This document shows positions 14,392 to 54,246 of a stretch of DNA of 64,000 nucleotides, one piece after another. Each line of letters begins with the position of its first letter. The first letter of the stretch is position 1. The DNA is from Gemmatimonadales bacterium (GTDB taxonomy: Bacteria > Gemmatimonadota > Gemmatimonadetes > Gemmatimonadales > GWC2-71-9), in contig DASYCE010000015.1 in NCBI GenBank assembly GCA_036500345.1, forward strand, positions 1 through 64,000, written 5' to 3'. The position numbers and the translations under genes were made by a program. The notes beneath the pieces were generated by a model. The model was not told where the DNA came from, made no database searches, and was given only the letters and a program-made list of their open reading frames with translations.

Positions 14392-14432
14392 CGCGCCACC
14401 AGCAATCCCTCGGGGGAGGGAACGGTGGCGCG
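14392..14432 (+). promoter_or_regulatory. Long hairpin just 3' of the cobalamin aptamer
   Basis: CGCGCCACC (14392-14400) pairs perfectly with GGTGGCGCG (14424-14432). Inside it, TCCCTC (14406-14411) pairs with GAGGGA (14416-14421) around a GGGG loop. By position this could be the switching hairpin whose loop contacts the aptamer (kissing loop), as described for cobalamin riboswitches. That role is inferred. Confidence 0.55.
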
Positions 14433-14473
14433 GTCGTGTCGAATTGTCGCCATCGGCGGCGTTCTCCCGTCCT

Positions 14474-14507
14474 CGCCCATCTCGCCTCCAGGAGATGGGC
14501 GATTTTT
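14474..14507 (+). terminator. Riboswitch expression platform: intrinsic-terminator-like hairpin overlapping the ribosome binding site
   Basis: CGCCCATCTC (14474-14483) pairs perfectly over 10 bp with GAGATGGGCG (14492-14501), with an 8-base loop, and is followed by TTTTT at 14503-14507. The permease ATG follows at 14509. The only Shine-Dalgarno-like sequence, AGGAG at 14490-14494, is partly inside the 3' arm. The same hairpin could therefore stop transcription, hide the ribosome binding site, or both. Confidence 0.8.
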
Positions 14508-14508
14508 C

Positions 14509-15504
14509 ATGGCGGGACCTGGTACATCGCGCGCTCGACTGGCACTGCCGATCCTGCTGATCGCCGCAGCGATCGCGGCCGTGCTGGGCGTGATGCTCGG
14601 TGCGGTACCGCTCTCGCCGATGGCCATCCTGAACGCCATCCGCCACGCCGACGCGCCTGACGCGTCGATCGTGCGCGACCTCCGGTTGCCGCGCGTTGCG
14701 CTGGCGTTCGTCGTCGGTGGCAGTCTCTCGGTTGCCGGGGCGTCCTTGCAGGCGCTGCTGCGCAATCCGCTGGCGGAGCCGTGGCTCCTGGGATTGTCGG
14801 GCGGCGCGTCGCTCGGCGCGGTCGTTGCCGTGGCAATCGGCTTGCCGCCGGGATGGAGCGTGGCGGCGTGCGCCACGATCGGCGCCCTCGCGGCGATCGC
14901 GCTGGTCTATCGCATCAGCGTCGTCGCCGGCCGCCGGCTCGATCCGCGGATACTTCTCCTCGCCGGCGTCGTGGTCGGTGCATTCACTGCCGCGGTGACG
15001 TCGGCGCTGCTGGTGATCGCTGATCCATTCACCTTCCACTCGGCCACGGTCTGGCTCTTCGGGGGATTCGGCCGGTCGAGCTGGTCGCTCCTCTCCCATT
15101 TCGTGCTGGTCGCGATCCCGGCACTCCTTCTCATCGGCTGGCTGGCGCGACCGCTCGATCTGCTCGCCTTGGGAGACGAAACCGCCGCGACGCTCGGCGT
15201 CGGCGTCGAGGGGACGCGCCGACTGGTGATCATCGCCGCGTCAGTGCTCACGGCGGCAACGGTGACCGCGGCGGGGGTGATCGGATTCGTCGGACTCGTC
15301 GTGCCACACGCGCTGCGCGGAATCGTCGGCCCGATCCATCGGTCGCTCCTTCCGGCGGCGTTCGTGGCCGGCGGCGTCTTCACGATCCTCGCCGACATGG
15401 CGGCGCGGACCATCCTTCGGCCGGTCGAAATCCCGGTCGGCGTCATCACGGCGCTGGTCGGCGTACCGGTCTTTGCGGTGTTGCTGCGGCGGAATCTGCG
15501 ATGA
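14509..15504 (+). CDS. btuC: FecCD/BtuC-family ABC transporter permease (vitamin B12 uptake)
   Basis: Polytopic inner-membrane permease of the iron-siderophore/cobalamin type, 331 residues with about 10 predicted helices. Family motifs: LRLPRVALAFVVGGSLSVAGASLQALLRNPLAEPWLLG near residues 60-95, FGRSSW, and the late GVIGFVGLVVPHALRGIVGPIHRSLLPA that contacts the ATPase. The start is the ATG at 14509 immediately after the hairpin. An in-frame GTG at 14425 lies in the riboswitch leader and is rejected. Specificity for cobalamin rests on the riboswitch and the BtuB-like gene. The motif alone would also fit siderophores. Confidence 0.9.
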   Translation: MAGPGTSRARLALPILLIAAAIAAVLGVMLGAVPLSPMAILNAIRHADAPDASIVRDLRLPRVALAFVVGGSLSVAGASLQALLRNPLAEPWLLGLSGGASLGAVVAVAIGLPPGWSVAACATIGALAAIALVYRISVVAGRRLDPRILLLAGVVVGAFTAAVTSALLVIADPFTFHSATVWLFGGFGRSSWSLLSHFVLVAIPALLLIGWLARPLDLLALGDETAATLGVGVEGTRRLVIIAASVLTAATVTAAGVIGFVGLVVPHALRGIVGPIHRSLLPAAFVAGGVFTILADMAARTILRPVEIPVGVITALVGVPVFAVLLRRNLR

Positions 15505-16301
15505 TCCTCGCCGGGCGCCATCTCACCGTCGACTTCCCGGTCGCGCGCGGCGCGAAGCCACACCGCGCCCTCGACGACGTGTCGTTCTCCGTCGCCAGTG
15601 GCGAGCTCGTCGCCGTCGTCGGTCCAAATGGCAGCGGCAAGACGTCGCTGCTGCGCACGCTGCTGGGGCTGATCACGCCGACGAGCGGCGATGTCACGCT
15701 CGGATCTCGCGCCATCGCTGCGTGGAGCCGGCGGGAACTCGCCGAAACGATCGGTGCGTTGCCGCAGCGCGAAGCACCGGCGTTCCCGCTGACGGTGCGT
15801 GAAGCGGTGTTGATGGGGCGCTGGGCCGCGCTCGGTCCGGTTGCGCCGATCACCACCGCAGACCACGCCGTGATCACGGAGGCGCTGGGTCGCTGCGACA
15901 TCGCCGGCTTCGAAGAGCGGGGGATCGATACGCTCTCGGGCGGCGAGTGGCAACGGGTGCGACTGGCGCGGGCGCTGGCGGCGACACCGCAACTCCTCCT
16001 TCTCGATGAACCGACCGCCGCGCTCGACGTCGGACACGAAATGGAATTGCTCGAACTTCTCCGCCGCCTCGTTCGCGACGGTCTCGGCGTCCTCGTCATC
16101 ACCCATCAGCTCAATCTCGCCGCGCGTTACGCCGACCGGATCGTGCTCCTCGACCGCGGCCGTGCGGTCGCCGATGGGGTACCGGCGAATGTGCTCACCG
16201 CCGCCGCCGTCTCCGCGGCGTTTCAGTGGCCGGTCGCCGTCACGCAGTGGCGCGACGGATCGCCGCAAGTGGTCCCCCTCAGAAAAGACGAAATCCCATG
16301 A
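15501..16301 (+). CDS. btuD: ABC transporter ATP-binding protein (vitamin B12 uptake)
   Basis: Cytoplasmic ATPase that drives the permease encoded just upstream (4-bp overlap). 266 residues. Walker A GPNGSGKTS near residue 42, Q-loop in LPQREAPAFPLTV, ABC signature LSGGEWQRVRLARAL, Walker B LLLLDEPTAALD, and switch His in VITHQLN. The length and the ABC signature fit the FepC/BtuD group. The stop overlaps the BtuB-like start by 4 bp. No BtuF-type periplasmic binding protein gene lies in this cluster. Confidence 0.92.
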   Translation: MILAGRHLTVDFPVARGAKPHRALDDVSFSVASGELVAVVGPNGSGKTSLLRTLLGLITPTSGDVTLGSRAIAAWSRRELAETIGALPQREAPAFPLTVREAVLMGRWAALGPVAPITTADHAVITEALGRCDIAGFEERGIDTLSGGEWQRVRLARALAATPQLLLLDEPTAALDVGHEMELLELLRRLVRDGLGVLVITHQLNLAARYADRIVLLDRGRAVADGVPANVLTAAAVSAAFQWPVAVTQWRDGSPQVVPLRKDEIP

Positions 16302-18337
16302 CCCGTTCTTCCCATTTCTCGCGGAGTGGCATGATGCCGTATCGACGTTCACCGATCGCCGGCGGCGGCGGGATTCATCGGGTGGCCCGCGTCGCCGTGC
16401 TCGCGGTGGCGCTGATCGTCTCGGTGCCGACGATCGCGCTCGCTCAGGTGCCTGACACCGCGCGCGTCCAGGATCTCGTTGTCACCGCAACGAGATTGCC
16501 GACGCCGGCGTCGGAAGTACCAGCCGGCACGACCGTCATCAGCGGTGACGACCTGCGCGAACGTGGTGTCCATTTCGTGCTCGATGCGCTGCGCGATGTT
16601 CCGGGAATGTCGATCGTCCAGACCGGATCGTACGGCGCCGTGACGTCGTTGTTCCTGCGCGGAGGCGAAAGTGATTACGTGAAGGTGCTCCTCGACGGCG
16701 TGCCGCTGAATCTTCCCGGAGGGAGCATCAACTTCGCCAACCTCACGACCGAAGACCTCGACCGGATCGAGATCGTCCGCGGACCTGCCAGCGTACTGTA
16801 CGGCGCTGACGCAATGAGCGGCGTCGTGCAGCTCTTCACCCGTAGCGCGGGAGCGCGATCGAGCGTCGAGGTCACCGGCCGGGGCGGAAGCCGCGGAACC
16901 AGCGATCTCAGCGGCCACGGCGACATCGCGAGCGGACGGTTTTCCATGAGCGCGACCGGTGGCCGGTTTGGTAGCGACGGGACTTTTCCGTTCAACAGTG
17001 ACTATCGCAACGCGATGGGCACGTTGCACGCGGGATATGATGCGGGCGCCGCCGGCCGCATCGGCGTCAGCGCACGGTACGACGATGCACTGATCCATTT
17101 CCCGACCGACGGGAGCGGCAACGCCGTAGATCACAACCAGTTTTCCGCCGAGAAGAGTTTCGCCGGCGGGCTCGCGGCCGACCGGAGGGTCGGCGCGATC
17201 GGACTGCACTTTGAAGGGTATGCCTCGCGGCTGAATGAGGGGTATACCAATCGCGCCGATTCGCCGGCAGATACCAATGGCTTCGACTTCATCGAAGACC
17301 GCGACGGGATTACCTGGCGGAAGGGTGTCGGCGCACGCGTCGACTGGCACGCTGCCAGCGGCACGGTCGCGACGGCTGGCGCGGGGATCGAACGCGAGAG
17401 CGACGACGAGCATGACGTCGGGACGTCGAATTTCGGTTTCGGATCTGAAACCGACACTTCGAGCTCCGACAACAACCGCACCACCCGCGACGGCTATCTC
17501 CAATTGCTATCCAATCCCGGGCATCTCTCGCTCCAGCTCGGTGGGCGTGTCGACGACAACTCGGCGTTCGGAGCCTTCGGCACCTGGCGCGGGGGCCTTG
17601 CGTGGCATCTGTCGCCGTCGAGTCGCGTCTGGGCTGCCGCCGGCACTGCCTTCAAGGCGCCGACTTTCTCGGAACTCTTCGCCCAGAGCGCCTTCGAGGT
17701 CGGCAACCCGGATCTCAAGCCGGAGCGGAGCCGCAACGGCGAAGTCGGCGCGGAAACAGCGTTCGCCGATCGCCGCGTACGGCTCGGGGCGACGGCGTTC
17801 TGGCAGACCTTTCACGACCTGATCCAGTTCGTCAACGCAGCCCCGGGCGACCCGAATTACACCAACCTCGGCGGTGCGAGCAGCCGAGGAGTGGAATTGA
17901 CCGCGTCAGCGGTCGCGGGAGCCGGATTATTGCTCAGCGCCCACTGGACTTTCCTGCATACCGAGGTCACTGATACCGGTGCCGCGTCGTCGATTTCATT
18001 CCAGCAGGGCGGCTCGCTGACTCGGCGGGCAGCGTCGGTCGGCGGTGGAACCTTGGCCTATCGGTGGCGCGGCGTGACTATCGAAGGAACAGCGCTCCAC
18101 GTGGGCGCCAGGGACGACATTGATTTCTCGGGCGCCACCGCCGTCCGGGTTACTTTAAAGCCCTACACCACGTTCGATTTTGCCCTCGATCTGCCGGTCT
18201 TCGGGTCGGCTGACAGGTCTCCCGGTCTCGACCTGACGGTTCGCGGTGAGAACGTGTTCGATGCCAGCTATCAGCAGGTCGTCGGGTTCCCGGGTCGCGG
18301 TCGCACTCTCCTCGCCGGGGGGCGCCTGCGATACTGA
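16298..18337 (+). CDS. btuB: TonB-dependent outer-membrane receptor, BtuB-like
   Basis: Outer-membrane transporter powered by TonB, 679 residues, close to BtuB size. A signal peptide of about 50 residues ends at VPTIALAQ. The TonB box QDLVVTATR is at about 58-66. The plug domain contains LRDVPGMSIVQTGSYGAVTSLFLRGG split over residues near 100, DRIEIVRGPASVLYGADAMSGVV, then a 22-strand barrel with the late motifs FKAPTFSELF and NPDLKPERS, ending in GRLRY. ATGA overlap with the ATPase gene; a later ATG at 16331 is possible. B12 is the likely ligand because of the riboswitch. Confidence 0.9.
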   Translation: MTRSSHFSRSGMMPYRRSPIAGGGGIHRVARVAVLAVALIVSVPTIALAQVPDTARVQDLVVTATRLPTPASEVPAGTTVISGDDLRERGVHFVLDALRDVPGMSIVQTGSYGAVTSLFLRGGESDYVKVLLDGVPLNLPGGSINFANLTTEDLDRIEIVRGPASVLYGADAMSGVVQLFTRSAGARSSVEVTGRGGSRGTSDLSGHGDIASGRFSMSATGGRFGSDGTFPFNSDYRNAMGTLHAGYDAGAAGRIGVSARYDDALIHFPTDGSGNAVDHNQFSAEKSFAGGLAADRRVGAIGLHFEGYASRLNEGYTNRADSPADTNGFDFIEDRDGITWRKGVGARVDWHAASGTVATAGAGIERESDDEHDVGTSNFGFGSETDTSSSDNNRTTRDGYLQLLSNPGHLSLQLGGRVDDNSAFGAFGTWRGGLAWHLSPSSRVWAAAGTAFKAPTFSELFAQSAFEVGNPDLKPERSRNGEVGAETAFADRRVRLGATAFWQTFHDLIQFVNAAPGDPNYTNLGGASSRGVELTASAVAGAGLLLSAHWTFLHTEVTDTGAASSISFQQGGSLTRRAASVGGGTLAYRWRGVTIEGTALHVGARDDIDFSGATAVRVTLKPYTTFDFALDLPVFGSADRSPGLDLTVRGENVFDASYQQVVGFPGRGRTLLAGGRLRY

Positions 18338-43226: not shown

Positions 43227-45035
43227 TTACTTCCACACGGCGTGTTCGACGCCGCGAATCACATTCGCCGCCGGCTGGTCGAAATCGAAGACGGTGACCT
43301 GGTTGACGCCGTTCCGGATCCACACCCCAGGCAGGTAGAGCGAGAGCTGCGGGCCGATCTGCCAGAATCGCCCCAGCGCATGACCGTTGACCCACACGGC
43401 ACCCTTCCCCCACCCAGTCATGTCGAGATACGTGTCGCCCGGTTTCGTCGTGGTGAACGTGCCGTAGTAGATCGCGGGCCCCGTCGTCGTGCCGGTGGAA
43501 GCGCGGGGCTCCGGTGTGCTGCTCATCGGCAGGGTATAGACGTCCCACCCGGTGAGTTCACGGCCGCCGAGGGTGACCGACTTGGTGATCCCCTTCCGCT
43601 CTCCCCGCAGCGCCTTGGTGAAATTCACCCGACCGCCATTTTCCACCAGGATATCGAGTCGTGCGTCGCCGGCCGGCAGGCGAAGTACCGCGCTATCCTG
43701 GTTGAGCCGGCGATCGAGCGTCGCCTGCAGCTGACCATTCACGTAGATCCGCGCGTAGTCCCGCACATCGCGAATGACCAGTTCACCCTCGAGCGGACCA
43801 GGCACCGTCGTGCGGTACAGGATGTAGCCGTATGACTGTCCGAACGTTTCCATCGAACGCGGCCGGTCGACGTGGGCCGGCTTCGGCAGCATCTGCCAGA
43901 GGGATGTCATCGGTGCCAGTGCGAAGCCGGCGACAGCGACGGTCGAGTCGGTCACCGGAAATGGCGACAGCGGGGATTTCGTGTAGCGCGCGATCAGATC
44001 GCGGAAGGCATAGTACTTGGGAGTCGGCCGCCCCGATTCATCGAGCGCCGCGTCGTAGTCGTAGCTGGTCGTCTGCGGGTGATACTTGCCGTTGTCGATA
44101 TTGGCGCCGTTCATGAAGCCGAACGTGGTGCCGCCGTGGAACATGTACAGGTTGACCGAGTGTCCGTGGCTCAGGATCGTGTCGAGTTCGCTCACCTGCC
44201 TGGTTTCGTCGGTGTGCGCGTGATTGCCGCCCCACTGATCGAACCATCCAGCCCAGTATTCGCCGCTCATCAGCGGTGCACCCGGCCGGAATCGCGCCAG
44301 CCGCGCGAAGGCGCTGTCGCTTTCGCCGACGCCGAAGTTCACGACCGCGGGAAGGTCGGGGAGCGTGCCGGCGCGCAGCTGATAGTCGCCGTCGGCGGTA
44401 TACAGGCGGACGCTGCCGAATCCGGCATGGCGAAGGGCATCGCGCTGCCACGCCATGTAGCTGGTGTCGTGATCGAATGATCCGTACTCGTTCTCGACCT
44501 GCACGGCGATGATCGGTCCGCCGTGCGATGCGAGCAGGGGCGAGAGCTCGCGACCGAGCCGGTCGAGCCAGCGCGACGCTGCGGCGGTGAAGTGCGGATC
44601 GGTGCTCCGGAGGATCATCGTGGAGTCAGCGAGGAGCCACGCCGGATAGCCGCCGAGCTCCCACTCGGCGCAGACGTACGGGCCGGGGCGCAGGATGACG
44701 TGGAGCCCCTCCTGCTGGGCGATGCGGATGTATTCGGCTACGTCGTTCTGTCCGCTGAAGTCGAAATGGCCCGGGGCCGGTTCGTGGAGATTCCAGAAGA
44801 CGTAGGTTGAAATGGTATTGAGTCCCATCGCCCGCGCCTTGCGGAGACGGTCGCGCCACAACTCGCGCGGGATCCTGGCATAGTGCATCTCGCCCGAGAT
44901 GACCTGGAACGGCTGACCGTTGAGTGCGAAATGTCCGTCGATCGACTGCAGCCCCGCCGGTTGCTGGCTCGCGGCCGGTGCGGCGGCAGCCGCGACGATC
45001 GCGATGACGGCGCACAAGCGTGTGACAGGCGGCAT
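43227..45035 (-). CDS. Exported GH35 beta-galactosidase
   Basis: 602 residues with a signal peptide (AVIAIVAAAAAPAASQQ). The GH35 TIM barrel shows ISGEMHYARIPRELWRDRL, the signature RPGPYVCAEWELGGYPAWLL, the predicted acid/base Glu183 in QVENEYGS and the nucleophile Glu259 in MSGEYWAGWFDQWGG. C-terminal jelly-roll domains follow (GRFWQIGPQLSLYLPGVW). Removes terminal beta-galactose from oligosaccharides. Convergent with the M1 gene; its start overlaps the stop of the dehydratase gene by one base. Confidence 0.93.
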   Translation of the reverse strand: MPPVTRLCAVIAIVAAAAAPAASQQPAGLQSIDGHFALNGQPFQVISGEMHYARIPRELWRDRLRKARAMGLNTISTYVFWNLHEPAPGHFDFSGQNDVAEYIRIAQQEGLHVILRPGPYVCAEWELGGYPAWLLADSTMILRSTDPHFTAAASRWLDRLGRELSPLLASHGGPIIAVQVENEYGSFDHDTSYMAWQRDALRHAGFGSVRLYTADGDYQLRAGTLPDLPAVVNFGVGESDSAFARLARFRPGAPLMSGEYWAGWFDQWGGNHAHTDETRQVSELDTILSHGHSVNLYMFHGGTTFGFMNGANIDNGKYHPQTTSYDYDAALDESGRPTPKYYAFRDLIARYTKSPLSPFPVTDSTVAVAGFALAPMTSLWQMLPKPAHVDRPRSMETFGQSYGYILYRTTVPGPLEGELVIRDVRDYARIYVNGQLQATLDRRLNQDSAVLRLPAGDARLDILVENGGRVNFTKALRGERKGITKSVTLGGRELTGWDVYTLPMSSTPEPRASTGTTTGPAIYYGTFTTTKPGDTYLDMTGWGKGAVWVNGHALGRFWQIGPQLSLYLPGVWIRNGVNQVTVFDFDQPAANVIRGVEHAVWK

Positions 45036-45991
45036 CAGATGAATTCCTTCAGCCGACCGAGATCGATGTTGCCGCCGCTCAGCAGCGAAACCACTCGCGC
45101 GTCGGATGGAATAGCGGTTCGATGCGCGAGGAGCGCCGCGGTTGCTGCGGCACCGGCCCCCTCGGCCAGCAACTTGGCGCGCGAAAGGAGCGCCGAGATC
45201 GCCTGGGCGATTTCGGCGTCGGAGACCAGGACCACGTCGTCGACGAGATCGCGGACGATCGGATAGGTCACCTGACCGGCGAACGGCGCCGCCAGCCCGT
45301 CGGCGATCGTCTGGAGCGCGTCGAGGCGGACCGGCTTGCCCGCATCGAGACTGCGGCGCATGGCGGCGGCTCCCTCTGGTTCCACACCGATCACCTTGAT
45401 CGCCGGCTTGGCACGCTTCACCGCGGCGGCGATTCCTGAAATGAGACCGCCGCCACCGATCGGCACGACGATCACGTCGACATCTGGTTGCTGATCGAGA
45501 ATCTCGAGACCGACGGTGCCGGCACCGGCGATGATGGCGTAGTCGTCAAACGGAGGGACCAGCGTGAACCCTTCCGTCGCAGCGAGCTCATCGGCCTTGG
45601 CGAACGCCTCGGCGCTGGTTCCGTGGCGGATGACCGTCGCGCCGTAGCCGGCGCTCGCCGCCGCCTTGCTCTCCGACGCCATCGCTGGCATGACCACGGT
45701 GCAGGCGACTCCCACCGATGCTGCCGACCAGGCGAGGGCTTGGGCATGGTTACCGGCCGAGACGGTGACAACCCCCCGGGCGCGGGCCGCCTGATCGAGT
45801 TGCAGCACGGCGTTGAGCGCGCCTCGCACCTTGAATGACCCGGTCTTCTGCAGCGATTCACATTTCAACGATGCCGTCTGCACCCCGGCCAGCGTCGCAA
45901 TGGTGCGCGACGAAAGGAGCGGGGTGATATGCAGGTGGCCGGCAAGGCGTTCCTGTGCCGCGCGGATGTCGTCGAGCGATGGAGATAGCAT
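45035..45991 (-). CDS. PLP-dependent threonine/serine dehydratase-like enzyme
   Basis: 318 residues, fold-type II PLP enzyme. The Schiff-base Lys is in TGSFKVRGALNA. The phosphate loop GGGGLISGIAAAVK and the SAGNHAQALAW segment are as in catabolic threonine dehydratase or serine racemase. There is no C-terminal ACT domain, so it is not the feedback-regulated IlvA form. It could deaminate threonine or serine, or racemise serine. A second paralogue lies at 59643-60596. Transcribed divergently from the poly-HAMP kinase region; no good ribosome binding site precedes the ATG. Confidence 0.88.
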   Translation of the reverse strand: MLSPSLDDIRAAQERLAGHLHITPLLSSRTIATLAGVQTASLKCESLQKTGSFKVRGALNAVLQLDQAARARGVVTVSAGNHAQALAWSAASVGVACTVVMPAMASESKAAASAGYGATVIRHGTSAEAFAKADELAATEGFTLVPPFDDYAIIAGAGTVGLEILDQQPDVDVIVVPIGGGGLISGIAAAVKRAKPAIKVIGVEPEGAAAMRRSLDAGKPVRLDALQTIADGLAAPFAGQVTYPIVRDLVDDVVLVSDAEIAQAISALLSRAKLLAEGAGAAATAALLAHRTAIPSDARVVSLLSGGNIDLGRLKEFI

Positions 45992-46128: not shown

Positions 46129-46240
46129 TCAGAAGGCACCTCCCATCGGTGCCCGCCTTGCCGGACGGATTTCGTGATCCGCCAGTCGAAGGCGCCACGT
46201 GCAGCACCCCCGGGTGCGTCGTGGCGCCTTTGTCGTTTTT
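46129..46240 (+). ncRNA. Structured leader RNA or small RNA with attenuator-like alternative helices
   Basis: Three helices can be drawn. (A) GGCACC 46135-46140 with GGTGCC 46148-46153. (B) CGCCTT 46154-46159 with AAGGCG 46189-46194, enclosing CGGAT/ATCCG (46166-46170 and 46177-46181). (C) AAGGCGCCACG 46189-46199 with CGTGGCGCCTT 46220-46230, continued by GCACC/GGTGC inside, followed by TTTGTCGTTTTT. Helices B and C share 46189-46194 and exclude each other, and C looks like an intrinsic terminator. I do not recognise a known riboswitch class. It is either a leader of the kinase operon or a free-standing sRNA. Confidence 0.6.
46189..46240 (+). terminator. Intrinsic-terminator-like hairpin upstream of the poly-HAMP kinase
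   Basis: An 11-bp perfect stem (46189-46199 with 46220-46230) with an inner GC-rich extension. The T-rich tail TTTGTCGTTTTT is interrupted, with the T5 run at 46236-46240. It lies 112 bases before the kinase ATG, so transcription of the kinase from the upstream promoter would have to pass it. Confidence 0.65.
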
Positions 46241-46351: not shown

Positions 46352-49300
46352 ATGCCACGAGCCAGCAGGACATCAAGCGCCAGCGCGGTGATGGAAGAGG
46401 TCGAACCATCGTCGCTCGATCGTGTACGCCTTCTTGAGGCGCTGCAGCGAATGCGTGGAGGCGACTTCACCGTCCGCCTCCCGGGTGACTGGACTCTCGT
46501 CGATGGAAAGATCGCCGACACCTTCAATGAGATCGTGGCGGCAAACGAGAAGATGGCGATTGAACTCAAGCGGCTCGGGCAGGTGGTCGGACGGGAGGGG
46601 AAGACGCGGGAGCGCGCCAAGTTCGAGCACTCCCGCGGTTCATGGGGCGAAATGGAAGCGTCGGTCAACGGCCTGGTCGACGACCTGCTGCGTCCCACCA
46701 CCGAAGTCACCGACGCCATCGCCGCCGTGGCGCAGGGGCACCTGACCAAGACGATCCGCCTCGACGTCGACGGCCGCCCGCTCGAGGGAGAGTTCCTCCG
46801 GTCCGCCACGATCGTCAACACGATGATCCAGCAACTCGGCGTCTTCACCTCCGAAGTGACCCGCGTCGCGCGGGAAGTCGGATCCGACGGCAAGCTCGGT
46901 GGCCAGGCTCAGGTGCTCGGCGTGAGCGGCGTCTGGAAGGATCTGACCGAGTCAGTCAACTCGATGGCGAGCAACCTCACCGCGCAGGTCCGCAACATCT
47001 CCGAAGTCACCATCGCCGTTGCCAGCGGCGACCTGTCACGCAAGATCACGGTGGACGTCCGCGGCGAGATCCTGCAGCTCAAGGAAGCGATCAACACGAT
47101 GGTCGACCAGCTGCGGTCGTTCGCGTCGGAAGTGACGCGGGTGGCACGCGAGGTCGGCACCGAAGGGAAGCTCGGCGGGCAGGCCGTGGTCCCTGGTGTG
47201 GCGGGGACGTGGAAGGACCTCACCGACAGCGTCAACGCGATGGCCGGCAACCTCACGGCGCAGGTTCGCAACATCGCGGAAGTCACGACGGCGGTCGCGC
47301 GCGGCGACCTGTCGCGCAAGATCACGGTGAACGTGAGCGGCGAGATCCTCGCGCTCAAGGACACCATCAACACGATGGTCGATCAGCTCAATGCCTTTGC
47401 CGGTGAAGTGACCCGCGTCGCACGCGAAGTCGGCACCGAAGGAAAGCTGGGCGGTCAGGCCCAGGTGCTCGGCGTTGGCGGCACGTGGAAGGACCTCACC
47501 GACAACGTCAACTTCATGGCGAGCAACCTGACCGCACAGGTGCGCAACATTGCCGAGGTCGCCACGGCGATCGCCCGCGGCGACCTGTCGAAGAAGATCA
47601 CCGTGAATGTGAGCGGCGAAATCCTGCAACTCAAGGAAACGCTCAACACGATGGTCGACCAGCTCAACGGCTTCGCGTCCGAGGTCACCCGCGTGGCTCG
47701 CGAGGTCGGAACGGAAGGGCGCCTCGGCGGGCAGGCCGCGGTCCCCGGCGTGGCCGGGACCTGGAAGGATCTCACCGACAACGTCAACCTGCTCGCCGCA
47801 AACCTGACGACCCAGGTGCGCAACATCGCCGAAGTGACCACCGCGGTGGCGCGCGGCGACCTCTCGCGCAAGATCACGGTCGACGTGAAGGGCGAAGTGC
47901 TCGAGCTCAAGATCACCATCAACACGATGGTCGATCAGCTCAACTCCTTCGCCGCCGAAGTGACCCGTGTCGCGCGCGAAGTCGGTACCGAAGGGAAGCT
48001 TGGCGGGCAGGCGCAGGTGGGCGGTGTCGCCGGCACGTGGAAGGACCTGACGGATAGCGTCAACTCGATGGCGAGCAACCTCACCGGGCAGGTGCGCAAC
48101 ATCGCCGAAGTCGCGACGGCGGTGGCGCGCGGCGACCTCTCACGCAAGATCACCGTCGACGTGAAGGGCGAAATCCTCGAGCTCAAGGACACGCTCAATA
48201 CGATGGTCGATCAGCTCAACGCCTTCGCCTCCGAAGTGACGCGCGTGGCCCGCGAAGTCGGTACCGACGGCCGTCTCGGCGGGCAGGCGCTGGTGCCGGG
48301 CGTGGGCGGGACGTGGAAGGACCTCACCGACAGCGTCAATTTCATGGCCAGCAACCTGACGGCGCAGGTCCGCAACATCGCCGAGGTGGCGACGGCGATC
48401 GCGAACGGCGACCTGTCGAAGAAGATCACCGTCGACGTGAGCGGCGAGATCCTGGAACTCAAGGACACGCTCAACACGATGGTCGATCAGCTGAACGCGT
48501 TCGCCTCGGAAGTGACCCGTGTGGCGCGCGAAGTCGGAACGGAAGGGAAGCTCGGCGGGCAGGCACAGGTCCCCGGGGTCGCCGGCACGTGGAAGGGGCT
48601 CACCGACAACGTCAATTTCATGGCGGGCAACCTCACTGCCCAGGTCCGCAACATCGCCGAAGTGACAACAGCCGTCGCGCGCGGCGATCTCTCGCGCAAG
48701 ATCACGGTGAATGTCAGCGGCGAAATTCTCGCGCTCAAGAACACCATCAACACGATGGTCGACCAGCTCAACGGCTTTGCCGGTGAGGTCACCCGTGTGG
48801 CGCGCGAAGTCGGCACCGAAGGAAAGCTGGGCGGCCAGGCCGAAGTGCCGGGCGTCGCTGGCACGTGGAAGGATCTCACCGACAGCGTCAATTCGATGGC
48901 GAGCAACCTGACGGCGCAGGTGCGCAACATCGCCGAGGTGACGATCGCAGTGGCGAGCGGCGACCTCTCCAAGAAAATCACGGTCGACGTGCGCGGCGAA
49001 CTGCTCCAGCTCAAGGAAGGGATCAACACGATGGTGGAGCAGCTGCGGTCGTTCGCGGCTGAGGTCACCCGCGTGGCTCGTGAGGTGGGAACGGATGGGA
49101 AACTCGGCGGTCAGGCAGTCGTCTCGGGCGTGGCCGGCACGTGGAAGGACCTCACCGACAACGTCAACCTCCTCGCCGCCAACCTGACAACCCAGGTGCG
49201 CAACATCGCGGAAGTCACCACGGCGGTGGCGCGCGGCGACCTGTCGCGCAAGATCACCGTCGACGTGAAGGGAGAGATTCTCGAGCTCAAGCTGACGATC

Positions 49301-52300
49301 AACACGATGGTCGATCAGCTCAACGCCTTCGCGGCCGAGGTGACCCGCCTCGCGCGTGAAGTGGGAACGGAAGGGAAACTCGGCGGTCAGGCGAAAGTGC
49401 CGGGGGTTGCCGGCACGTGGAAGGATCTTACCGACAACGTCAACGTCATGGCCGCCAACCTGACTGAGCAGGTGCGCGGCATCGTGAAGGTCGTGACCGC
49501 CGTCGCGAACGGCGATCTCAAGCCGAAACTGACGGTGAACGCCAAGGGTGAGGTCGCGGCGCTCGCCGAGACGATCAACGACATGACCGGCACATTGGCG
49601 ACCTTCGCCGACCAGGTGACGACGGTCGCCCGCGAGGTCGGCGTCGAAGGACGCCTCGGCGGCCAGGCCAACGTGCCGGGCGCGGCAGGGACGTGGAAGG
49701 ACCTTACCGGCAATGTCAATCTTCTGGCGGCCAACCTGACCACGCAGGTCCGTTCGATCGCGGAAGTGGCAACGGCGGTGACGCAGGGCGATCTCACCCG
49801 CTCGATCCAGGTGGAAGCGCGCGGCGAGGTGGCGGAGCTCAAGGACAACATCAACACGATGATCGACAACCTGCGGTTGACCACCGACCGCAACACCGAA
49901 CAGGACTGGCTCAAGACCAATCTCGCGCGCCTCACCGGCGTGCTGCAGGGACAACGCGATCTTCGCACCGCGGGGAAGGTGCTCCTCTCCGAACTGGTGC
50001 CGCTGGTCAACGCCCACCAGGGCGTCCTCTACCAGGTGCGCGATGACGACCCGCCGGGACTCGCACTGCTCGCCTCATACGCCGACGCGCATCACGGGGG
50101 ATTCCCGTCCCAACTCGGGATGGGCGAGGGTTTCGTGGGGCAATGCGCCGCTGATCAGCGCCGCATCCTGATCACCGCAGTCCCCACCGACGCGGTTCGG
50201 GTGCATTCGACGTTTGTCGAGACGCTGCCGCGGTCGATCATCGTGGTGCCGGTGGTCTTCGAAGGGCGGATCAAGGCGGTGCTGAGCGTCGCCTCGCTCA
50301 CGGAGTTCGTGCCGTCACACCTCGCGCTCCTCGACCAGCTCACCAGCAGCATCGCGATCGTGCTCAACAGCATCGAGGCGTCGATGCAGACGGAAGGGCT
50401 GCTCAAGCAGTCGCAGCAGCTCGCCACCGAACTGCAGACGCAGCAGGTCGAGCTGCAACAGACCAACGAACAGCTGGCGCTCAAGGCGCAGCAGCTGGCG
50501 GAGCAGAACGCCGAGGTCGAGCGGAAGAACCAGGAAATCGAACAGGCGCGCCGCGCGGTCGAGGAGAAGGCAACCGAACTCGCGCTCACGTCGAAGTACA
50601 AGTCCGAGTTCCTGGCGAACATGTCACACGAGCTGCGCACGCCGCTCAACAGCATCCTGATCCTCGGCCAGCAGCTGTCGGAGAATTCGGAAGGAAACCT
50701 GCAGCCACGGCAGGTCGAGTTTGCCAGGACGATCCACGGCGCCGGCACCGACCTGCTCAACCTCATCACCGATATTCTCGACCTGTCCAAGATCGAATCC
50801 GGCACGGTGACGGTGATGGCGGAGGAAGTCGTCGTCGCCGCCGTCCTCGACGCGATTGCCCGGCCGTTCCGTCACGAAGCGGAGGCACGCAACCTCTCGC
50901 TCGACGTGCAGCTCGACCCAACGACCGGCAGCACGATCGTCACCGATGCGAAGCGGCTGCAGCAGGTGCTGAAGAACCTCCTGTCGAACGCCTTCAAGTT
51001 CACCGAACAGGGCGGCGTCCGGCTGCGCGTCGGGCCGGCGTCGAGCGGGTGGAATGTCGAACATCCGGTGCTGTCGCATGCGCCGCGCGTGATCGCCTTC
51101 GAGGTCGCCGACACCGGCATCGGGATCGCGCAGGACAAGCAGCGGATCATCTTCGAGGCGTTCCAGCAGGCTGACGCCGGAACAAGCCGCAAATACGGCG
51201 GTACCGGTCTCGGCCTCGCCATCAGCCGCGAACTTTCCTCGCTGCTCGGCGGCGAGATCCAGCTGCGCAGCATGCCCGGTGTGGGCAGCACCTTCACCCT
51301 CTACCTGCCGGTGGCATACGCCGGCGCCTCGGAGAACGGAGCGGAAGAGCGGCCGGTTGGACACGGACCGTTCGTTCCGGTGCGCGTCATCGACCGCGCC
51401 ATCGAGCCGGTCCCGGATGATCGGCACGGGGTCGTTGCCGGCGACACGGTGCTGCTCATCGTGGAGGACGATCCCCACTATGCACGGATTCTCCTCGACG
51501 AAGCCCACCAGCAGGGGTTCAAGGTGCTGGTTGCGAGCGGCGGCGCCGAAGCATTGGCACTTGCCCGGGAGTTCCACCCGACCGCGGTGTCACTCGACGT
51601 CTTCCTTCCCGACATGCTCGGGTGGACCGTCCTGAACCAGCTCAAGCAGGATCCGACGTTGCGGCACATCCCGGTGCAGATCGTCACCCTCGACGAGGAT
51701 CGCCAGCACGGTCTGGCGTGCGGTGCCTTTGCGTTCCTGCCCAAGCCGACGACGTCGGAAGGGCTGCAGGCGGCCTTTGCGCGGATCCGCGAGTATGCGG
51801 TGCCGCGCTCGAGGCGATTGCTCGTGGTCGAGGACAATCCGGCGGAGCAGGTGAGCATCATCGAACTCCTGCGCCACGACGACATCGAGATCGCAACGGC
51901 AGCCTCCGGCGGCGAGGCACTGGCGACACTGCGGCGCGAGCCGTACGATTGCGCGGTGCTCGATCTCCGGCTCCCCGACATGTCGGGATTCGAAGTCCTC
52001 GAGCACATTCGCGACGATGCGCATCTCCGCGAACTGCCGGTGGTGGTCTTTACCGGAAAGGAGCTGTCGCCCGACGAAGACGCCCGGCTTCGTACGCTGG
52101 CGCGAAGTGTCGTGGTCAAGGGTGTCGAATCGCCCGAGCGGTTGCTCGACGAGACGGCGCTTTTCCTGCATCGCGTCGTGCACCAGCTTCCGCCGGAGAA
52201 GCAGCGGATGCTCGAACGACTCCATCGCGGTGACGACGACCTCGTGGGCAAGAAGGTGCTGGTGGTCGATGACGACATCCGCAATATCTTTGCACTGAGC

Positions 52301-52615
52301 AGCGTCCTCGAGCGGCGCGGAATGGAAGTGCTCACGGCGGGGACCGGGCACGAAGCGATTGCCACGCTCGGGCACACCGCCGACATTGCGATCGTCCTGA
52401 TGGATATCATGATGCCGGAAATGGACGGCTACCAGACGATGCACGCGATTCGCGAGAATCCCGAGTTGCGGCGCCTGCCGATCGTGGCGCTGACCGCCAA
52501 GGCGATGAAAGGCGACCGCGAGAAGTGCCTCGAGGCGGGTGCCTCGGACTACCTCGCCAAGCCGGTCAATACCGAGCAGCTCCTGTCGGCACTCCGACTC
52601 TGGCTGCACCGTTGA
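46352..52615 (+). CDS. Giant soluble poly-HAMP hybrid histidine kinase with three receiver domains
   Basis: 2087 residues, no signal peptide or membrane helix, so predicted cytoplasmic. After a divergent N-terminus (1-167), eleven 92-residue units follow (about 168-1180). Each unit holds two HAMP-like halves: [19 protein letters not shown]...[11 protein letters not shown] and [26 protein letters not shown]. This is the arrangement of fungal group III (Nik1/Os-1) kinases, much extended. Then: GAF (about 1195-1345), Gln/Glu-rich coiled coil, HisKA with His1426 ([13 protein letters not shown]), HATPase ([26 protein letters not shown]), and three REC domains (about 1697-1815, 1822-1940, 1967-2085), each with the phospho-Asp. 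TTGA overlap with the next kinase. Confidence 0.92.
46853..49888 (+). repeat. Eleven tandem 276-bp repeats encoding HAMP units
   Basis: The codons for [10 protein letters not shown] recur at 46853, 47129, 47405, 47681, 47957, 48233, 48509, 48785, 49061, 49337 and 49613, each exactly 276 bases apart with no indel between units. Units 1-9 are very similar in DNA, while units 10 and 11 diverge ([18 protein letters not shown]). This indicates duplication within the gene with homogenisation of the central copies. Confidence 0.92.
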
Positions 52616-54246
52616 GCACGACCACGGCGGGGGCGACCGACAGGGCCAACATCCTCCTGGTCGACGACCAGCCGGGGAAGCTGCTCACCTACGAAGCGAT
52701 CCTGAGCGACCTGGGGGAGAACCTCCTCAAGGCGACGTCGGGGAAGGAAGCGCTCGAGCACCTGCTCAAGCACGACATCACCGTTGTGCTGATGGATGTC
52801 AGCATGCCGGAGATCGACGGCTTCGAACTGGCCGAGATCATCCGGCAGCATCCGCGCTTCCAGAAGACGGCGATCATCTTCGTCTCGGCGGTGCACCTGA
52901 CCGACCTGGACCGGGTCAAGGGATATGCGTCGGGCGCAGTCGACTATCTCTCCGTCCCGGTCATTCCCGAACTCCTTCGGGCCAAGGTCAGCGTCTTCAC
53001 CGAGTTGTACCGGTCGACGCGCGAAGCGGAGCGGCTCAACCGCGAACTCGAACAGCGCGTCGCCGAGCGGACCGCCGAACTGGAAGCGTCGTCCCTCAAG
53101 CTCGCCGAGCTTGCCGACAAGCTGCGCGAGGCGGACCGCCGCAAGGACGAGTTCCTGGCGCTGCTCGCGCACGAGCTGCGGAATCCGCTGGCACCGGTCC
53201 GCAACGCCGTGAGCATCATGCATCTCAAGGGCTCACTCGATCCCGATCTTCAGTGGTGTCGCGACGTGATCGAGCGGCAGGCAAACCAGCTGACGCGCCT
53301 GGTCGACGATCTCCTCGATGTGTCGCGGATCACGCAGGGGAAGATCAAGCTGCGGCTCGAACCGGTCGACCTTGCCGACGTGGTCCGAGCGGCCGTGGAG
53401 ATGAGCCGGCCGGTGATCGACGCGCAGCATCACACGCTCTCGGTGGCGCTTCCGGAGCATCCGGTCCTGGTCAACGGTGATCAGGCGCGGCTGACACAGG
53501 TGATTGCCAACCTCCTCAACAACGCCGCGAAGTATCAGGCCGACGGGGGACGCATCGACCTGGTGGTCAACGCCGAGCCGGGGCTCGCGGTGATCTCGGT
53601 GAAGGACCGGGGGATCGGGATCGCGCCGGCGGTGCAGACGCAGATCTTCGAGCTGTTCGCTCAGGGCGAACGCCCGGCAGACCGCCAGCAGGGCGGACTT
53701 GGTGTCGGCCTCTCGCTGGTCAAGACGTTGGTGGAGATGCATGGCGGGAGCGTACGTGCGGCGAGCCGCGGCCTCGGACGCGGCAGCGAGTTCACCATCG
53801 CGCTGCCGCGGCTCGCAGAAGCCGCCGAGCGACCGGGGCGCGAGAGTGCCGGGGCGCCGGAAGCGGCGGGGCAGCACCACATTCTTGTCGTCGATGACAA
53901 TCGTGACGCGGCAGATTCGCTCGCCATGCTGCTGCGACTCGACGGGCACCAGGTCACCGTGGCACACGACGGACACCGGGCGCTTGAGCTCGCGCGGCAG
54001 GAGCGTCCGGCGATCGTCCTGCTCGACATCGGACTCCCGGGAATGGATGGGTACGAGGTCTGCCGGCAGGTGCGGCAGGAACAGCTTGGTGTCGGGTTGA
54101 TCGTCGCGATGACCGGCTACGGCCAGGAACGGGACAAGCAGCGGGCGCGCGACGCCGGTTTTGATGCGCACACCGTCAAGCCGGTCGACGTCTCCGAACT
54201 CAAGCGCCTGCTGGGCGGCGCGCCAGGCGGATTGCAGCGCGCCTGA
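52612..54246 (+). CDS. Hybrid histidine kinase REC-HisKA-HATPase-REC
   Basis: 544 residues, soluble. The TTG start is inferred from a 4-bp TTGA overlap with the giant kinase and the immediate approach to the first domain. REC1 (about 16-135): [24 protein letters not shown]; its usual KP lysine is replaced (YLSVPVIPE). Coiled coil, then HisKA with His187 ([13 protein letters not shown]) and HATPase ([26 protein letters not shown]). REC2 (about 425-540): [38 protein letters not shown]. It probably receives or shares signals with the giant kinase. No DNA-binding output gene is adjacent. Confidence 0.9.

Follow-up and report, generated by a model that had tools for sequence, protein, structure and literature searches.

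The question raised by this locus is what kind of RNA lies just ahead of a large poly-HAMP kinase gene, and what it does there. The window, that is, the whole stretch of 64,000 nucleotides that was analysed, carries at 46135-46240 on the plus strand a hairpin (P0), a core hairpin and an 11-bp intrinsic terminator. P0 (46135-46153) has the sequence GGCACC-UCCCAUC-GGUGCC, with arms at 46135-46140 and 46148-46153 and a 7-nt loop, UCCCAUC, and it abuts the core. The core, or antiterminator, hairpin of about 40 nt (46154-46194) was delimited with two covariance models (R1 and R2) and pair counts. In its outer arm, P1a, CGCCTT (46154-46159) pairs with AAGGCG (46189-46194), that is, CGCCUU with AAGGCG in the RNA. 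Inside P1a are a bulged G (G46188), the short helix P1b (G46160-C46187, C46161 opposite U46186, C46162-G46185), a G.A mismatch between P1b and P2 (G46163.A46184), and the P2 stem-loop (46164-46183), in which CGGAU (46166-46170) pairs with AUCCG (46177-46181) and which is the covarying, length-variable part. The terminator (46189-46240) pairs AAGGCGCCACG (46189-46199) with CGTGGCGCCTT (46220-46230; CGUGGCGCCUU in the transcript) without a mismatch around an inner hairpin and ends in a U-rich tail; TTTGTCGTTTTT consists of the TT of the terminator arm and the bases after it. AAGGCG is thus used twice, as the 3' strand of P1a and as the 5' arm of the terminator.

The earlier note had read this region as two exclusive folds with one common arm, and this proved exact to the base, with every element found where the note had placed it. 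The fold of a 126-nt stretch was 4.0 standard deviations better than those of dinucleotide shuffles, none of 200 shuffles being as stable. A 72-nt piece that ends before the 3' arm of the terminator folded into P0 and the P1 hairpin instead of the terminator (z-score of -2.9), and with the complete sequence the terminator state was 7.4 kcal/mol better than the P1 state.

We compared the element with the known RNA families. When the whole window was scanned with cmscan against Rfam 15, the sole match was a cobalamin riboswitch, with none at 46129-46240. No Rfam family reached its gathering threshold at 14 loci with relatives either, and scans with permissive thresholds of the element and of relatives from three other genomes gave only sub-threshold matches at chance level. 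Matches to the sRNAs CC0196 and CrfA (12-17 bits, below threshold) were discarded. The earlier note's view of this RNA as an unrecognised one therefore stands. The motif was also undescribed in the literature searched, which covered riboswitch candidates of these taxa and genes, antitermination and poly-HAMP kinases and stopped short of most subscription journals and all bioRxiv preprints. The cobalamin riboswitch (RF00174, 14261-14382, plus strand, 62.4 bits) is unrelated to the attenuator RNA; the genes for a FecCD transporter, an ABC ATPase and a TonB receptor behind it (14425-18337) form an ordinary B12/metal uptake operon.

BLAST, run with the complete element, found almost no relatives, the invariant positions being few. 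It returned one real relative, ahead of a catalase gene in genome G006 of the same genus as the window, and two of its three leads were chance matches. A phylum-wide pattern added two relatives, both in genome G295. This pattern, CGGA..CCAGTCGAAGGCG, was lax and its matches were mostly chance, the G006 copy and the two G295 copies being the only real ones, and exact pattern scans of viral contigs gave no match. Model R1, which was built from three distinct sequences of these early relatives and did not require a terminator, was run on 395 genomes of the phylum and recovered about 30 convincing members with the same layout. A specific pattern run over GTDB contigs gave members outside Gemmatimonadota, namely in Holophagaceae/Geothrix, another acidobacterium, two Scalindua, another planctomycete, KSB1, Kapaibacterium and a deltaproteobacterium. 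This pattern required CGCCTTT, so the members first found with it are biased toward having a terminator; the terminator-blind R1 survey showed the same layout. Pattern matches such as those in Klebsiella, Streptomyces, Bradyrhizobium and Methylosinus showed no core fold on visual inspection and were discarded as chance matches.

Model R2, built from 26 sequences, gave 64 matches in 49 loci and 70 in the final set of 55 loci. Weak model matches without the layout were set aside (L098, L089:11809, L204, L205, L206, L175-L177, L179, L235 and L238). The roughly 70 relatives are mostly in Gemmatimonadota and are sparse but clear in Acidobacteriota, Planctomycetota, KSB1, Kapaibacteria and Deltaproteobacteria, which makes six phyla. 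The RNA was present in 22 of 179 genomes of the family of G104, in 16 of 102 genomes of the family of the window at a loose threshold that lets in chance matches, and in 1-9% of the sampled genomes in the phyla of the other carriers, some chance matches included. Its distribution is patchy, even within genera. One contig titled Candidatus Kuenenia stuttgartiensis (L124, CALQGY020000015.1) matches the Gemmatimonas-group contig G235:C15 both in length and in this RNA, and the title looks wrong.

The consensus of the core is CCUUGnCG-[P2]-AGUYGAAGGCG. P1a, reduced to CCUU/AAGG, is invariant, as is the bulged G on its 3' side (67/67 distinct cores), and the G.A mismatch was kept in 63 of the 67. 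P1b is a 3-bp helix of the form G-N-C/G-N-Y, whose middle pair (7-32) is usually N.U and is complementary in 10 of the 12 cores in which position 32 is not U. Compensatory changes over the whole core, almost all of them in P2, occupied 123 cells compared with 37.8 +/- 6.7 in shuffles, a count made on an alignment fitted to the covariance model, and no slid register exceeded 27 double-change cells. The fairer count, made on a MAFFT alignment, gave 42 double-change cells compared with 13.8 in shuffles. The element thus has the layout of a transcriptional riboswitch, a conserved, covarying core with a closing helix that competes with a terminator; P1a itself does not covary, and its formation is predicted from complementarity and folding. 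The P2 loops vary in length and sequence. A P0-type hairpin (score of at least 7) was present in 74% of copies and 12% of shuffles, with its end 0-4 nt ahead of the core; its sequence is unconserved, its loops have 3 to 12 nt, and some copies lack it.

Two KSB1 copies (L189:7155-7252 and L189:13184-13248) have long insertions in P2 with the core kept, as if a further domain had been inserted. Two degenerate copies (L088:13189-13227 and L197:949-988) have kept P2 and the terminator and lost the GUC or the UU/AA of P1, and they may be decaying or differently regulated.

A terminator was called when an uninterrupted stem of at least 7 bp started in the first three bases of AAGGCG and was followed by at least 4 T in 10 bases. 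By this definition, a terminator started at the same AAGGC arm in 56 of 64 matches, compared with 4.9% when the downstream sequence was mononucleotide-shuffled; the L193 copy is without one. In 55 of these 56 copies the full transcript preferred the terminator, by a median of 5.4 kcal/mol, and in 44 of the 56 a transcript ending 15 nt past the core formed P1. The predicted energies have the layout of a switch that is off unless the core is bound. Conservation and covariation in relatives had been set beforehand as the test of the element, and relatives from several phyla have kept the core, a P2 that covaries and the terminator on the shared arm. We are nearly certain that both the RNA and the switch built on its shared arm are genuine and conserved.

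In the window, the gene taken as regulated encodes a poly-HAMP GAF hybrid histidine kinase of 2087 aa with HisKA and three receiver domains by Pfam (46352-52615, plus strand), whose ATG at 46352 is 111 nt downstream of the element. A second hybrid kinase gene, also assigned with Pfam (52525-54246, plus strand), overlaps it and, judging from this overlap, is likely to be on the same transcript. The nearest upstream gene encodes a PALP enzyme (45035-45991, Pfam). As this gene is divergent, on the minus strand, the terminator, which is on the plus strand, does not close an operon lying upstream, and we rejected that explanation. Poly-HAMP kinases that are orthologues of one another follow the RNA in three genomes: that of the window, one of the same genus and one of Gemmatimonas type. 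The orthologues directly behind it in G004 and G104 show 94% identity over the N-terminal part that was compared. Contig C32 of the window genome carries another copy, weaker than the first, which precedes small proteins that look DUF1328-like by eye and have no Pfam match.

Behind most copies the next start codon is on the same strand, often 45-165 nt past the core, and the downstream genes were named with Pfam. The signalling genes encode poly-HAMP hybrid kinases, single receivers, PAS hybrid kinases and LuxR-type proteins, and further an ECF sigma factor, CheW, a chemoreceptor and a roadblock protein; in many genomes of genus g34 they encode sigma-54 activators with a receiver. The stress genes encode catalase, CsbD, DUF1328, DUF892, DUF2383, hemerythrin, Ku and a PNPOx-like protein, and several genomes carry at least three copies of the RNA. 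No convincing gene was found behind at least seven copies (L180, L187, L239, L240, L088:13698, L088:13189 and L189:13184). The earlier note had proposed a regulatory leader of the kinase pair: an attenuator-like leader does precede the poly-HAMP kinase, but the proposal was too narrow, as the RNA marks many signalling and stress genes. Its other suggestion, a stand-alone sRNA, is the less probable reading of most copies, and the few without a gene behind them could be such sRNAs.

In genus g61, sigma-54-like promoters were found 39-68 nt upstream of P1 in several copies, and these positions fit a P0 near the 5' end of the transcript. Such promoters were clear in g61 only, and a sigma-54 promoter ahead of all copies was rejected. 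Stress-gene islands in L088, L094 and L101 (G399, G159 and G295) hold up to seven or eight copies of the RNA per genome, several of them behind sigma-54-like promoters, and Gemmatimonas-type copies precede sigma-54 activator genes; a two-layer circuit of sigma-54-like promoters and sigma-54 activator targets is possible. A protein family with the motif F-A-(D/E)-ELAELH-(E/D)-GS-(V/I)-SLFVTLPVF was also observed behind the RNA in three g61 genomes (L101:2046-2576, L088:10139-10636 and L094:8898-9392), its L101 member being without a Pfam match.

We believe, with fair confidence, that a cis-acting transcription attenuator is the best account of the two exclusive folds, the conservation of the fold, the covariation of P2 and the linkage to genes. 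In this mechanism, the 5' leader RNA would decide whether the elongating polymerase enters the poly-HAMP kinase gene. The first structures to form, as the polymerase leaves the promoter, would be P0 and the core hairpin, and P1 (CGCCUU/AAGGCG) would hold the future 5' arm of the terminator. Once the 3' arm emerges, the longer, GC-rich terminator would displace P1, and by default transcription would presumably stop near 46240. We infer a signal, a small ligand or an RNA-binding protein, that would recognise those features of the core that do not vary: the bulged G and the G.A mismatch, the 3-bp helix G-N-C/G-N-Y, and possibly the apical GG. With P1 locked in this way, the terminator stem would lose its base beside the U-tract and the downstream gene would be transcribed, which would make the element an ON switch. 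Since many signalling and stress genes have this switch ahead of them, its control may extend over a whole regulon.

The attenuator could be read in two ways, and we regard a small molecule and an RNA-binding protein other than an ANTAR protein as about equally likely readers. A protein-dependent antiterminator, in which a non-ANTAR regulator stabilises the hairpin against the terminator, as BglG/LicT-type proteins do on RAT, is a serious candidate that falls short of an even chance. In its construction the RNA resembles RAT sites (PMC3369931): one small hairpin, whose bulged G and G.A mismatch are invariant, overlaps a terminator. Many of the targets are themselves regulators, which fits autoregulated circuits, and the small, mostly helical core with its bulged G and G.A mismatch leans slightly toward a protein; against this, no candidate binder was found in a search for ANTAR domains, which are missing from 14 of 21 carrier genomes, the window's included. 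A riboswitch, whose core would itself bind an ion or a small molecule, for instance a second messenger or a stress metabolite, is comparably plausible and likewise short of even. It is favoured by the invariant non-helical nucleotides and by the layout of P0, core and terminator with about 5 kcal/mol between states, and the spread over six phyla without a common adjacent protein leans toward a small ligand. However, the core is very small and mostly helical, and the controlled genes share no one metabolite and point to a global signal.

A trans-acting, stand-alone sRNA with its 3' end at the terminator, the downstream genes having promoters of their own, would agree with the strong terminator and with the few copies that have no gene behind them. 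We consider it unlikely, as most copies lie just ahead of a same-strand gene of recurrent classes, two competing folds of AAGGCG are needless for a plain sRNA, and the exposed loops of P0 and P2 lack the conservation expected of a seed. It is very improbable that the locus works by leader-peptide attenuation or is a terminator-like repeat that arose by chance in a GC-rich genome. Short ORFs do cross the region in the window, but the core length is not a multiple of three, the starts are not conserved, and a reading frame with an ATG and a Shine-Dalgarno sequence enters the core in only 5 of 58 copies, and we therefore rejected the leader peptide; a chance repeat is contradicted by the fold z-score of -4.0, the strong covariation and the conservation over several phyla.

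Among known systems, RAT leaders typically serve sugar-utilisation operons. Signalling and stress genes lie behind the present RNA instead, and an extra hairpin, P0, abuts its core. The RAT of BglG, SacY and LicT is a single hairpin of about 30 nt that overlaps the 5' part of the terminator and, when stabilised, prevents termination (PMC3369931); in our RNA, likened to it by layout, the 5' arm of the terminator is likewise shared with a single hairpin. With the target RNAs of ANTAR proteins it shares two tandem hairpins, the second of which overlaps the terminator, and a tie to response-regulator signalling. In ANTAR sites both hairpins must carry hexanucleotide loops with A1 and G4 (PMC3369931), whereas here the P0 loops have 3 to 12 nt, those of P2 differ in length and sequence between copies, and it is the stem that is conserved. 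Because the RNA lacks these loops and the ANTAR domain (PF03861) was found in only 7 of the 21 carrier genomes, not in that of the window, ANTAR binding was rejected and ANTAR proteins were ruled out as a universal partner. Like ON-type transcriptional riboswitches, the element has an arm common to the closing helix of the sensing core (the aptamer in riboswitches) and the terminator, a wide spread and varied genes; it differs from them in its small core and in matching no Rfam class. The YjbJ motif, a weak riboswitch candidate with 40 representatives, has been reported only from Streptococcus (PMC11109978), and we set it apart by this reported distribution. The element is a new class, absent from Rfam 15, within a known kind, the transcription attenuators.

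We speculate, at about even chances, that it is a new and widely scattered class of riboswitch, or a new antitermination system of RNA and protein, which responds to a signal of general stress or to a second messenger and co-activates two-component, chemosensory and general-stress genes in several phyla. If so, it would be a layer of global stress control at the level of transcription elongation. The regulatory and stress genes that the RNA marks form a coherent set, in poorly studied phyla whose regulation is little known. The consensus and covariance model make the question of the sensor testable: there is a single hairpin, the terminator gives a clear readout, and about 70 variants occur naturally.
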